Made by a program: the position numbers and the translations under genes. Below the pieces are notes generated by a model, which saw only the letters and a list, made by a program, of their open reading frames with translations, was not told the DNA's origin and searched no databases. This document shows positions 20,797 through 25,882 of a stretch of 64,000 nt of DNA, one piece after another. Source of the DNA: Scheffersomyces stipitis CBS 6054 (lineage: Eukaryota; Ascomycota; Pichiomycetes; Serinales; Debaryomycetaceae); contig NC_009043.1 of the NCBI RefSeq assembly GCF_000209165.1, positions 930,001 through 994,000 on the forward strand, given 5' to 3'. Each line of letters starts with the position of its first letter. The first letter of the stretch is position 1.

Positions 20797-22281
20797 TTAG
20801 TTCCCATCAATATCAGAAGATTCTTTAGTAGGAGTTTTATGCTTCCTATCTGTTCGGAGCCACTTGAATATATACTTCAATGGAGCAAGAATTCTTTCTA
20901 ATTGGTCGTATCCATTGTCAATAAATGAAACACTTTTTGGTTTTGCCAAATACTTAAATTTGTGGATAGCAAAAGAATAGAGAGCTCTGTTAAAGCCATT
21001 GAATCCAAAAGGAAGGTGAGAGAAATAAAAGATACTATCTACACTTTCACTTTGTTCACTGCTCCAACGATAATCATAGTTCAGGTATCCTTCCGCAACG
21101 AAAACAAGGTCAGTAGAGGGTGGGAAAATCAGATTGAATTCAGGAAATTCGATTTCGTCAAGATTACTTTTGACCAATCTTAAAACAGTCTCGTCTCTTG
21201 AAATCGCATCACATAGGTAAACAATCAATTCTCTTTTCTCCGGACCAGCACTAACGATGCTATCGATAGATTCAGGCCCAATGGTGTTTGTATCTGGGTC
21301 TGTGGATTCAGCCTCATTTACATGGAGTCTCTCATTGGAATTCATATGAACAAGAATTATCTTTGGGAGATTCACTTTGAACTCGTCTAACTCTCTGTTG
21401 TTGCACGCATTGCTGAAACTATGTAGTTCACTCAAAATGGCATCAGCAATATTTTGGAGCGACTCCACTAAACTATTTGAGACTAACAACCCAAATCTCT
21501 CATAGATATAGAGCTCATTGGTAGTAGGCAATAATGCACTCCAAGTGACGAATTTTGCTACTTCAGTCAACAACTTCACCTTTTCTGCTGCCAAGTTAAC
21601 TCTGATTTGAGTGAAGTAGTCGTTTCTAAGGGCCAATACCATTTGTACGTCCTTTTTATCAGGTACTTTTATCTTCTTTTCGCTATCCAAATACGGTTGA
21701 GGGATTTCAGGAGGTGCTGCAGGAAATAGATTCTTTACGTTAAGTATCAAAGTCATCGTTTCGGGTAAGTCTCTCTTTGGAGTTGCGAGCTGAAACAGCG
21801 AAAGTCCCGAAGGTACACACCAAAGCATCTGTTGATAGATCACTCTAGATACCACGTTGGGCATGAGTGAAAGATAAAGATAAATGGCCGAAACTTGGTT
21901 AATAGCAGAGTACTTCAGCATTGAGGAGTTTCTTTGTACAGTCGTATTTAATTCATAACAACAGATAGAGTTTATCTCCTTGATGTCGTCCCAAAATCTC
22001 GCATAGTACCAGTATTGAGCTTGGAAATAGGTCCAGATCGTCAAAAATATCCGCAACATGTGAACCCTCAAGATTTGATAGGTGGTGATATCAACAACAG
22101 AACTATCCAAGGCATTATACATCCGGTTGGCACTGGTGAGCATGAAATTTCTATCATCAAATCCTTTGAGATCTTTAAACCCACCAAGTTTATTGGCCAA
22201 TGGCTGAGTGTTGTTGAAGTAGGATTCTTCCAACTTGTGGACATTTTCTTCTGTCAACCTGTCAACTCCTGGAGATGACAT
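20797..22281 (-). CDS. Divergent Nus1/NgBR-like cis-prenyltransferase-fold protein
   Basis: A 494-residue protein from the first ATG (22281); the frame is open further upstream but has no ATG. Hydrophobic stretches near residues 75-95 and 125-150 suggest ER membrane association. The C-terminal half resembles Nus1, the non-catalytic partner of Rer2 in dehydrodolichyl diphosphate synthase. EVAKFVTWSALLPTTNELYI followed by YERFG parallels Nus1 SEIVCWTVSAG..LMLYDYDG. SRDETVLRLVKS parallels NRDGRETIVDL. TDLVFVAEGYLNYDYRW parallels PDLLLYFGPSLDLQGFPPW. A FNRALYSFAIHKFK helix follows. Nus1 normally ends just after this helix with an RxG-type tail. Here about 45 extra residues follow and no such tail is seen. 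It may be the true Nus1 or a divergent relative. The match is from memory of short segments only. Confidence 0.4.
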   Translation of the reverse strand: MSSPGVDRLTEENVHKLEESYFNNTQPLANKLGGFKDLKGFDDRNFMLTSANRMYNALDSSVVDITTYQILRVHMLRIFLTIWTYFQAQYWYYARFWDDIKEINSICCYELNTTVQRNSSMLKYSAINQVSAIYLYLSLMPNVVSRVIYQQMLWCVPSGLSLFQLATPKRDLPETMTLILNVKNLFPAAPPEIPQPYLDSEKKIKVPDKKDVQMVLALRNDYFTQIRVNLAAEKVKLLTEVAKFVTWSALLPTTNELYIYERFGLLVSNSLVESLQNIADAILSELHSFSNACNNRELDEFKVNLPKIILVHMNSNERLHVNEAESTDPDTNTIGPESIDSIVSAGPEKRELIVYLCDAISRDETVLRLVKSNLDEIEFPEFNLIFPPSTDLVFVAEGYLNYDYRWSSEQSESVDSIFYFSHLPFGFNGFNRALYSFAIHKFKYLAKPKSVSFIDNGYDQLERILAPLKYIFKWLRTDRKHKTPTKESSDIDGN

Positions 22282-22639: not shown

Positions 22640-24637
22640 CTATTGTTCCATAGAAGCATCTTGGAATTCTTCGTCTGCTTCTTTAGCTGGGGATTCGTCG
22701 TATTCCTCAGTTGTGCTGTCGTCGTCATTTTTGAATGGTTCAATAGCAATCGATACTAAGTTGTCACTCTTGGAGATTGGAGCACCTTCATTTGGTATTA
22801 TCAATTCCAATTCGTCGTCGTTGATGAATCTGGCTTGGATTTGATCAAAGTGGACAATCTTGTCGAATTGGAAGTGCTTTTCAAATCTTATTTCGTGGTT
22901 CTTGAAGTCCTTGATAAGGGATTGAGTATCTTCTTGCACTTCTTCGTCCTCTTCGTGGTCACTTTCGAGATCTAAGTCCTCGTCGTCCTCGCCTTCAAAA
23001 CCGGACCATTCGAAGCTGTCATTGATGGCAGATGTCTCTTGCAATTCGTAGTCATCGTCATCTTCTTCTTCGTCAACTTCTTCGACGTCCTCCTCATCGC
23101 TATCGTCATCTTTTTCATCTGCTTCTTCTTCCTCTTCCTCATCCTCTTCGGCTTCGCTTTCTTCTTCATTTTCGGCTTCTTCATTTTCCTTAGCCTCTTC
23201 GTCATCGTTAACTTCTTCAAGGTGAACTTCAACTTCAACTGGACCTTCTTCGTCATCATCTTCATCTTCTTCCTCCTTTTCGTTTTCGATTTCAATTTCC
23301 TCGATGTCAGAGTCGTCAACGTCAGTGAAGTTGAACTTACCAGTAATTATTAATTCATTTTCGTTTTTCAAGAAGTCAATTTTCAATTCATCCTTGACCA
23401 AAGATGGAAATCTCAAGTTCAATTTGTAGGTGTTGTCGTCTAATTCAACAATTTCACAGTCCTTGCTGTTTTCTAAGTCGCCTGACAAGTCGATGACCTC
23501 AATCTCGTCTTCACTGTCTTCGGCTTGCAAATAACCGTCGCTGTCGTAGAGATCTTCATCAGATTCAGAATCAAGCAACTCTTCATCGGTAGAGTCTTCA
23601 GCACTTTCGTTACCTGGAAGGTCGAATCTGTGTCTGTAGATAGTGATACCTTCTTCATCGGAAGAATCAGAGGAGTCGGAGTATTCGTAGTATTCGTAGT
23701 TGACTGGATCACCAGCATCGTAGTTTTCTTCATCAGAAGATTCAATTTCAATGTCAGAGTCAATTTCAAAGTATTCTGGTTCAGAACCTAATTCAGAGTC
23801 TTCATCTTCAGACAATTCGATTTCATCGTCACTGACCAAACCTTCTTCGAAAGTTTGTCTAACGTTTTCCAATTGTAGTTGGTCTCTTAATTCTTCTTCG
23901 TCGGAATTGTAGTGCAAAGATTCATCTTCAGACGATTCTTCGTCGGAGTCAGATTGTTCAGATTCAGCACCAGCGATCTGTCTCAAAGCTTCAGCCTGCA
24001 ATTGGTCGTTCAAGTCAATGATGTCCAATATGTCTTCTGGTTCCAAGTCCGAGTCGGAGACAGAGTCATCTTCAGAGTCATCTTCGGAGGAGTCTTCAGA
24101 GTCGTCTTCAGAAGATACTTCATTGTCGTAGTATCTGACTAATTCATCGTTCAAGTCAAGCACTCTGCCTTCGTTGTCCAAGTATTCAATAGCTTGGTTT
24201 TCTAATTCGTCGTTCAAATCCACCAATTCAATGTCAGAGTCAATTTCGATATCTGAGACATCGGAATCAAGAAGGTAGTAAACGACTTCTTCTTCGGAGT
24301 CTGAGTCTTCTGAGTCTTCTGAGTCTTCTGAGTCTTCTGAGTCTTCTGAGTCTTCTGAGTCTTCTGAATCCTCAGAGTCATCGTCGGAGTCGTCGTTGTT
24401 TTCGTTGAGACCAAATTCGTAAACTTCTTCATCTTCTTCAGAATCTGGTTCAGAATCGTAGGCAGGGATATCAACTTCATCTTCTGTTTCAGATTCTTCC
24501 TCGCTGTCTGGTTCTTCCACAAACACAACCTTTTTGGATGGTTGCTCGTGGTAGTATCTTCTGTAGCCACCTTTTCTGCTCTTAGGGGCGTAGTGGGCCT
24601 TTCTGGCGTATCTGTTGTGCTTGGAAGCGGAAGTCAT
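22640..24637 (-). CDS. Hyperacidic small heat shock-like protein with a split alpha-crystallin domain
   Basis: A 665-residue, extremely acidic protein. Residues 1-36 are basic (YARKAHYAPKSRKGGYRRYY); 41-395 are mostly Glu/Asp/Ser. Residues ~396-437 (YKLNLRFPSLVKDELKIDFL, then NELIITGKF) resemble the first strands of an alpha-crystallin domain. About 140 residues of almost pure acid follow. Then ~578-616 (FEKHFQFDKIVHFDQIQARF, LELIIP) resemble its second half (FERTVKFP..IKDEEIKATY..LLQIKVP of Hsp42). A SIAIEPF motif at ~629-635 gives the C-terminal IXI anchor; Hsp42 has IAIEEI. I infer an Hsp42-type chaperone relative with an acidic loop in its core. A weaker alternative is a nucleolar acidic histone or ribosome-assembly chaperone. 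A short LDLNDEL-type motif recurs in the N-terminal half. Confidence 0.6.
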   Translation of the reverse strand: MTSASKHNRYARKAHYAPKSRKGGYRRYYHEQPSKKVVFVEEPDSEEESETEDEVDIPAYDSEPDSEEDEEVYEFGLNENNDDSDDDSEDSEDSEDSEDSEDSEDSEDSEDSDSEEEVVYYLLDSDVSDIEIDSDIELVDLNDELENQAIEYLDNEGRVLDLNDELVRYYDNEVSSEDDSEDSSEDDSEDDSVSDSDLEPEDILDIIDLNDQLQAEALRQIAGAESEQSDSDEESSEDESLHYNSDEEELRDQLQLENVRQTFEEGLVSDDEIELSEDEDSELGSEPEYFEIDSDIEIESSDEENYDAGDPVNYEYYEYSDSSDSSDEEGITIYRHRFDLPGNESAEDSTDEELLDSESDEDLYDSDGYLQAEDSEDEIEVIDLSGDLENSKDCEIVELDDNTYKLNLRFPSLVKDELKIDFLKNENELIITGKFNFTDVDDSDIEEIEIENEKEEEDEDDDEEGPVEVEVHLEEVNDDEEAKENEEAENEEESEAEEDEEEEEEADEKDDDSDEEDVEEVDEEEDDDDYELQETSAINDSFEWSGFEGEDDEDLDLESDHEEDEEVQEDTQSLIKDFKNHEIRFEKHFQFDKIVHFDQIQARFINDDELELIIPNEGAPISKSDNLVSIAIEPFKNDDDSTTEEYDESPAKEADEEFQDASMEQ
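24303..24365. repeat. 9-bp minisatellite, seven perfect units
   Basis: GAGTCTTCT is repeated seven times without change, encoding (Ser-Glu-Asp)n on the minus strand at residues ~88-112 of the acidic protein. Perfect identity suggests recent expansion and likely length variation between strains. Confidence 0.9.
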
Positions 24638-25882
24638 TTTTGTCTATAAGTTGTCGTCTATGAAAGGATGAAATGGTGATAAATATGTTCAACGGAAAGT
24701 TCGTTAAATGGCTATTTTTTGGAGGTAATTAGTAGAAAGTAAAAGAATAAGAACAAATAGCTAAGCAAAGAGACAACACGATAATCTACGATGTTACAAG
24801 TGCTTCTCCATATTACTTATACTAAAATTTTTCAGCCAGCTGATATTACGCCTCCATAGTGGGACAAATTTATTACTGCAGAGATGAGATGTGCGGCGTT
24901 TGCATAATTGCCTTTATGGGTGACGAGCGTCAGAGTGTGCATCACGTGGAAAAATTTTCACCATCTCGAAGAGAATAGAATTGAGAAGACTCTATTAGAA
25001 TTCTCTAGAAGTGCAGCAGCCAGCGGAAGTGTGTGAGATGAGGGGGGTCAGGTGACCGCTTCCATAGTTAAGCTGCTATAAAAGTTTTCTTCGTGTTTTG
25101 CACTCTGCTGCAAGAGCCCCACAATAAACGGGCATCGCGAAGAATATATATTTATTTGCAAATAGTAAAGCGTATCTAGGGAGACGGTGATGGTGGTAGA
25201 TCGTAGAATGAGTTGGAAACGAATGGAATTGTAGAGAAGCAAATGGTTCATGTAAATTGAGTTGTAATTGGACAATTTTGTAGTAGAATGCTTGGTGTGT
25301 TTTAGCTGCGAAGATGTCGCAATTTTTGATTTCCCAATTAGATTGCAAAAATTCAGCCAAAATGTAAAAATAGGAAATAGAGATACCCCACAAAACTTAC
25401 AAAAATTTAGGAAATGAAGATATCCAAACAATTAGAATTGCAAGGGTTCGACCTTGTTACTAGTTTTTAATACTATACATTAGTACAAGAACACTTGCCT
25501 GTGTAACTAGGTGAATATGGATGCAAAACCCTTCGTATTGTAGTATATACTCATTACTCCATAACTGGAAATAACTTTCAGCTACCTAACGTACGTTCCA
25601 GGACTTTATATCTCTCTTAGTTTACATAGCATCTTCAAATACATCATTGAATCAGTTAACTCGTCCTCTTTCCATCCACTATTTCTGTGTTATATGTCTA
25701 TTGCGTTTGCACCCAATTACACGTGTAAAATAAATGTTCGCGCGTCCGTAATTTGGCACTCCTGCTCGTAGAGTTGGAGTGGGAATATGCCGGATAGTGG
25801 TAATATGAATATACTGGAAATCGCATATACAATAAGGACCACCTATTAATCAGAACCACTCTATTTATTCTCGTTTCCAGCT
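24638..25882. promoter_or_regulatory. 1.25-kb divergent region between the acidic sHSP-like gene and SVP26
   Basis: CACGTG (24943-24948) is joined directly to an RRPE-like GAAAAATTTTCA (24949-24960). A PAC-like GATGAGATG lies near 24884, a GAAAGTTC half heat-shock pattern at 24695-24702, and a 12-bp palindrome TTACACGTGTAA at 25717-25728 before SVP26. The decamer CATAGTTAAG is at 25063-25072. Short ORFs at 25048-25431 have no family features. No gene is called. Confidence 0.45.

Follow-up and report, generated by a model that had tools for sequence, protein, structure and literature searches.

We analysed a window of 64,000 nucleotides from Scheffersomyces stipitis CBS 6054 (contig NC_009043.1, positions 930,001 to 994,000 of the forward strand), in which an open reading frame (ORF) at 22640..24637 encodes a protein of 665 residues plus stop (76.8 kDa, isoelectric point 4.05) that aligns with relatives from other yeasts. 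This protein almost certainly contains one alpha-crystallin domain (ACD) split in two by a long acidic insert. The ACD, the domain of small heat shock proteins (sHsps), is generally regarded as a single unbroken unit of about 90 residues. A first-pass annotation made from the letters alone had proposed the split; its ORF limits were exact, and the two half-blocks (residues 396-437 and 578-616) and the C-terminal IAI (residues 630-632) that it named are all present in the translation. The ORF has no CTG codon and its translation is identical under tables 11 and 12, so the reading is independent of the yeast code. The protein is real, conserved and unusual, yet within the HSP20 family. Its parts are given below by residue number and window coordinates, all on the minus strand.

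The sequence comparisons used 17 usable family members, including the protein itself (P0001). Three near-copies (P0004, P0014 and P0015) were kept in the alignments of 17 rows and omitted from the 14-row alignments of cores and halves, and P0012, a doubtful gene model, was excluded from insert counts. When residues 438-570 were left out and the ACD halves were joined, the Pfam HSP20 family (PF00011) was matched by 14/14 of these joined cores (best E 4.9e-9), where family matches were counted at E ≤0.1. The joined core of the S. stipitis protein matched positions 4-100 of the 102 in the HSP20 profile (E 0.0012-0.0019), and that of its relative P0002 scored 22.4 bits, above the curated HSP20 cut-off of 20.8 bits. 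Unjoined, 6 of the 17 members matched HSP20. Among nine usable proteins scanned, P0009, P0011, P0013 and P0014 passed the cut-off unjoined (22.0-22.8 bits), as did the doubtful P0012; the scores of P0013 and P0014 were the sums of both halves, and neither stretch passes alone.

Each half was also recognised separately in part of the family. First halves (residues 381-437, 23327..23497 in the S. stipitis protein) matched HSP20 in 10 of 14 members (best E 0.02) and ArsA_HSP20 in nine (best E 0.0024), and second halves (residues 571-618, 22784..22927) matched HSP20 in seven (best E 0.00095). The first half of the S. stipitis protein itself matched ArsA_HSP20 (E 0.037), together with one domain of unknown function by chance, and did not match HSP20. 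In hhalign comparisons with a reference set of 13 Hsp42 proteins of Saccharomycetaceae, which included the Saccharomyces Hsp42 (P0019), the first half was placed on profile columns 264-311 (E 2.6e-5, probability 75) and the second on columns 331-384 (E 8.7e-5, probability 60). By this sequence comparison the halves map onto adjacent segments of the Hsp42 ACD and in the correct order, weakly when taken singly and clearly when taken jointly: the joined cores aligned with the 13 Hsp42s at a probability of 94.9 (E 4.4e-8). The unedited full-length alignment also aligned both halves and skipped the insert, at a probability of only 28 (E 6e-4). Searched with the Hsp42 ACD profile, all 14 joined cores scored 16.3-31.1 bits, compared with 11.8 for the highest-scoring of 980 shuffled cores (952 reported) and 10.7 for the unjoined whole protein. 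A profile of the cores searched against the PDB retrieved yeast Hsp26 (E 0.0026) and plant sHsps, with two more matches at E 0.9 that are chance. Among NCBIfam families, Hsp18_Clos was matched by the cores of 11/14 members and none by that of the S. stipitis protein.

In two AlphaFold2 models the halves were paired as one ACD across the insert, and the structural matches of both models aligned over both halves. Predicted strands of the first half (394-400, 403-409, 419-423 and 428-435) were taken as β2-β5, and those of the second half were 582-590, 601-605 and 609-615. The halves thus neither lacked profile matches nor stayed unpaired in prediction, the two outcomes that the first-pass annotation had named as telling against its proposal. 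With HSP20-family sHsps of non-metazoan type, such as yeast Hsp26, the protein shares the ACD strand order, the NELxIxG and [NG/DD]ELExxxP motifs, a C-terminal anchor of IxI/V type and disordered flanks. It differs from them in that 79-183 acidic residues, across the family, cut the ACD at the β6 loop, where no strand is predicted.

Several observations weigh against this interpretation. The whole 665-residue protein had no match in Pfam, its joined core (18.7-19.4 bits) stays under the HSP20 cut-off, its second half alone matched no Pfam family, and phmmer with the single joined core found no match in the PDB. The AlphaFold2 models were built on the family alignment and are not independent data, and their confidence was modest, with a predicted local distance difference test (pLDDT) score of about 55-73 in the ACD and whole-model means of 46.6 and 48.6. 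Foldseek matches of the first model were weak (best E 0.16), and CS domains, which share the fold, were among the structural matches listed (4/50 and 3/50 for the two models). In addition, PIH1_CS matched the first half in 3/14 members (best E 0.045) and fungal Pih1 CS in one. The mass of 76.8 kDa exceeds the usual sHsp range of 12-43 kDa (PMC9224193). Two heat-shock elements with one mismatch were counted in 1 kb upstream, a number also reached in 15 of 300 shuffles; this signal is weak and was not used as support.

The insert (residues 438-570, 22928..23326) sits after β5, whose NELxIxG[KR] motif is found in 17/17 members, and before β7. Its acidity, described as almost pure Glu/Asp over about 140 residues in the first-pass annotation, is strong and falls short of purity: the 133 residues are 62% Asp plus Glu (D+E) with a net charge of −80, and residues 446-577 are 61% D+E with a net charge of −76. 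All 17 members, Candida viswanathii included, carry an insert, of 79-183 residues, 55-82% D+E+S and net charge −29 to −87. Its serine content is 5-10% in five members (the S. stipitis protein, P0002-P0004 and P0017) and 24-41% in the other 12. Judged by alignment, charge and position of the insert are conserved, and its sequence and length are not. At least 13 S/T-x-x-D/E sites lie in the insert in 13/17 members, and six in the S. stipitis protein, so casein-kinase-2-type phosphorylation could further raise the charge in most members. A lineage-specific internal repeat occurs in the inserts of P0002, P0003 and P0004 and consists of two related units, each about 30 residues long, helical-looking and containing basic residues (IKENAAARRERVAELLADLEE and IKELVAKKEAKSERVAQLLAELEAQE in P0003). 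It was found by local alignment in P0003 and by eye in P0002 and P0004.

In Hsp26, the β5-β7 loop carries β6, which is swapped between subunits (PMC8602628). A conserved segment precedes β7 in the family (residues 561-581, 22895..22957; consensus EDAQxLIKDFxNxEI), in which E565, E569 and D570 are invariant across the 17 members. In the hhalign comparison of joined cores its LIKDFxNxE part, just before β7, lay opposite the β6 region of Hsp42; in both AlphaFold2 models, which predicted monomers, it was a helix and no strand occurred between β5 and β7. The insert would therefore either precede an altered β6 or replace β6. Tolerance of up to 183 acidic residues inside the ACD implies that the β5-β7 loop can house a large module, and the family offers a natural experiment on whether β6 dimerisation is needed for chaperoning.

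Other chaperones show partial likenesses. Neurospora crassa Hsp30, which may carry a charged insert inside its ACD, is a lead only. Hsp110 and Grp170, of the Hsp70 superfamily, have a long acidic insertion in the substrate-binding domain (PMC11897415, PMC4488524, PMC11593806, PMC9411049) and thus share the design idea of an acidic insertion in a chaperone; they are ATP-driven and have an unrelated fold, which makes this an analogy and not kinship. Dictyostelium HSP48 likewise combines an ACD with a disordered region of high charge, but its charge is positive and lies C-terminal to the ACD rather than within it (PMC6584373). The annotation's remark that no well-described sHsp has such a loop agrees with our search: no description of an sHsp with such an ACD insert, or of this protein, was found in the Creative Commons (CC)-licensed literature as far as its excerpts go, which is weak evidence of absence.

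Named relatives belong to Candida viswanathii, Metschnikowia pulcherrima, another Metschnikowia, Candidozyma duobushaemuli and Hyphopichia burtonii. Serinales is the order of S. stipitis and of the four named species that were looked up, and 10 of the 16 usable relatives other than P0001 have no species name. C. viswanathii has two copies, either alleles or paralogues, whose inserts differ slightly (P0003 and P0004; Cantr_02937 and Cantr_04147). Two M. pulcherrima entries differ: P0011 keeps, and P0012 lacks, both the insert and a conserved N-terminal stretch; the gaps in P0012 most likely reflect introns wrongly predicted within acidic, low-complexity coding sequence. The UniRef label 'SHSP domain-containing' on P0012, P0014 and P0018 means that the family is partly seen already by automatic annotation. 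The empty whole-protein Pfam scan makes the gene easily missed, and sHsp counts taken from domain scans can miss members.

When the S. stipitis genome (15,441,179 bases, 8 contigs) was searched with the joined core, the gene itself was retrieved and then only an ordinary sHsp gene (C4:1678498, 27% identity, E 0.012). This gene (L001:1273-1899, C4:1678483) encodes 208 residues with an uninterrupted ACD and, unlike the protein described here, has no long acidic regions; no three-unit heat-shock element with up to one mismatch was found over 1,272 bp of its upstream sequence. Another candidate for PF00011 in the genome (L002, E 0.066) was dropped; it lies in a 719-residue ORF that we take to be CDC45-like. 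The ordinary gene is probably the Hsp18 of Pichia stipitis, one of the Hsp21/Hsp18 proteins of CUG-Ser yeasts, named by Mayer et al. 2012 (PMC3369842), who list Hsp21 for Candida albicans and neither Hsp42 nor Hsp26. A single ACD sHsp has been identified in C. albicans according to another paper (PMC9224193). Because these papers credit C. albicans with one such protein, the family looks like an overlooked second ACD sHsp of the Serinales clade, and we infer the extension to C. albicans from C. viswanathii.

The strongest alternative is that the protein is the genuine Hsp42 of these yeasts, enlarged by an acidic domain and an insert and acting as the same kind of sequestrase. The order of parts is the same, with a Tyr-rich N-terminus, an acidic disordered region before the ACD, and an IxI anchor followed by an acidic tail, and the ACD profiles match. 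Moreover, no canonical Hsp42 was found in the genome, where a search with ScHsp42, made without a positive control, gave no match, and Table 1 of PMC3369842 has no Hsp42 for C. albicans. The term Hsp42 together with 'CTG clade' was not found in the CC-licensed literature. The specific tie to Hsp42 drawn in the first-pass annotation is not supported, however. The SLYD start, the PFSPxxNxY motif before the ACD and the PDEEL tail each occur in 13/13 Hsp42s and in 0/17 family members, and none of the 13 aligned Hsp42s carries such an insert. In a tree of ACDs, a branch with support of 96/93 separates the 17 members from the 13 Hsp42s; Hsp21 falls nearer to the family and Hsp26 nearer to Hsp42, and since both are on very long branches finer placement is unsafe. 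The N-terminus is also richer in K/R and less prion-like, with 46-60% Q/N/Y/G/S/H/P in the five members measured versus 72% in ScHsp42. Because the three motifs are absent and the tree separates the groups, we do not class the family as Hsp42 but as an sHsp variant of unsettled origin that may work alike, and we regard the enlarged-Hsp42 alternative as unlikely.

The explanation that we put forward, and to which we give about an even chance, is that of an sHsp-type chaperone with a split ACD whose acidic arm loosens and tunes its assembly. It would be ATP-independent and consist of a basic N-terminal arm, an acidic helix-bearing linker, a two-part ACD sandwich and an IxI anchor, with the acidic insert leaving the sandwich at the β5-β7 loop, the site of the swapped β6 dimerisation strand in non-metazoan sHsps. 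Unfolding proteins would be held as by other sHsps, and such a holdase role is probable. The further steps are tentative: the arm may weaken or replace β6-swapped dimerisation, with charge repulsion keeping the assemblies small, open and soluble, and the arm and the acidic linker may bind the basic N-terminal arm of the protein itself or basic partners, with stress or serine phosphorylation tuning a reversible client condensate, as compared with the restraining disordered domain of Hsp42. The nearest basic partner of the arm is the protein's own N-terminus, and basic clients such as histones, proposed in the first-pass annotation, are possible as well. Two known systems lend support to a holdase or sequestrase loosened by its arm. 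Introducing negative charge into the middle domain or the ACD of Hsp26 unlocks this chaperone and makes it active (PMC8602628). Hsp42 is held back by a second disordered domain: it functions better once that domain is removed, yet fitness requires both domains (PMC6584373).

A bolder form of this proposal, which we consider doubtful, is that a second ACD sHsp has been overlooked in Serinales (CUG-Ser) yeasts, among them Candida relatives credited with just one, and that a polyanionic arm replaces its dimerisation loop. Such a protein would be a constitutively open, electrostatically self-regulated sequestrase, whose basic Tyr/Arg-rich N-terminus would bind the arm at rest and, under stress, either come free or coacervate with it. 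A polyanion built into an sHsp, with the Hsp110 insertion as an analogue, would make charge-controlled client condensates directly testable in yeast.

Alternatively, the protein could be an acidic chaperone of histones or ribosomal proteins, or a nucleolar one, in which the polyanionic stretches bind basic clients and the ACD is a scaffold. The net charge of the linker (about −143) and of the insert (−80) fits this idea, as does the retention of negativity in 17/17 members while the chemistry varies from Glu/Asp-rich to Ser-rich. However, the conserved parts are the ACD motifs and the anchor, the insert varies in sequence and length, no histone-chaperone family was among the Pfam matches, and the protein's own basic arm could occupy the acidic stretches. 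We therefore judge this role rather improbable. An Hsp90 co-chaperone with a CS domain (p23/Sgt1/PIH1-like) instead of an sHsp is very improbable: the shared fold and the CS matches reported above speak for it, but joined cores matched HSP20 in 14/14 members versus PIH1_CS in 1/14 (E 0.08), second halves had no CS match, the IxI-type anchor is present throughout, and the above-chance profile matches in the PDB were sHsps. Finally, hardly any weight is left for the insert being an intron or assembly artefact within an ordinary mature ACD, as a GTAAGT at codon 433 adjoining the insert and the P0012 gene model would suggest, and we rejected it: the gene has no TACTAAC-type branch site (only loose CTGAC words at codons 134, 229, 294, 438 and 443), the insert contains no stop codon, 17/17 members besides P0012 read through it, with M. 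pulcherrima itself represented by P0011, and the P0012 deletions also take the conserved residues before β7, leaving a loop too short for an ACD, as well as the conserved N-terminal stretch.

The remaining parts of the protein lie on either side of the ACD. The basic Tyr/Arg-rich N-terminal arm (residues 1-40, 24518..24637) has a net charge of +10 and contains RYxxKx, YxxYxxxQPS and VxEEP-like motifs common to the aligned relatives. The first-pass annotation had mentioned neither this arm nor the ordinary sHsp gene, nor the position of the insert at the β6 loop. The first-pass annotation had placed about 350 acidic residues ahead of the first ACD half. An acidic region is present there (residues 41-380, 23498..24517; 340 residues, net charge −143), yet at 44% D+E and with predicted helices it is not a plain acidic run. 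AlphaFold2 placed helices at 141-156, 162-174, 200-221 and 243-268 (residues 141-268, 23834..24217), and these carry LNDxL and LxDQLQ-type (LxDQLQxExxR) motifs, with LND.[LIV] in 8/17 members and variants in others. These helical motifs belong to the most confidently predicted regions of the protein, are somewhat like the SLYDVLNAL and LxxLLxAL of Hsp42s, and are possibly short binding motifs. Further along, a G[IVL]TIY motif upstream of the ACD (residues 330-341, GITIYRHRFDLP) occurs in 17/17 members and 0/13 Hsp42s. Behind the second ACD half, the IAI anchor (residues 630-632, 22742..22750) corresponds to [IV]x[IVL] in 17/17 members and is followed by an acidic C-terminal tail (residues 633-665, 22643..22741), read from the sequence.

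An ORF of 494 residues at 20797-22281 adjoins the gene downstream on the same strand and matched no Pfam family at E 0.001. Upstream, a weak heat-shock-element-like site with one mismatch (24998..25010) lies about 360 bp from the ATG, and an AGGGG resembling a stress response element (STRE) lies at 25041..25045; it too is weak, as AGGGG/CCCCT occurs 24 times in the window. The window has 26 ORFs of at least 150 residues, and the peak D+E content per 100 residues is 65 in the ORF described here versus at most 34 in the other 25. Within it, a 9-bp tandem repeat on the same strand (24300..24379, 8.9 copies, 94% match) encodes an (SED)n run, the length of which is probably variable.
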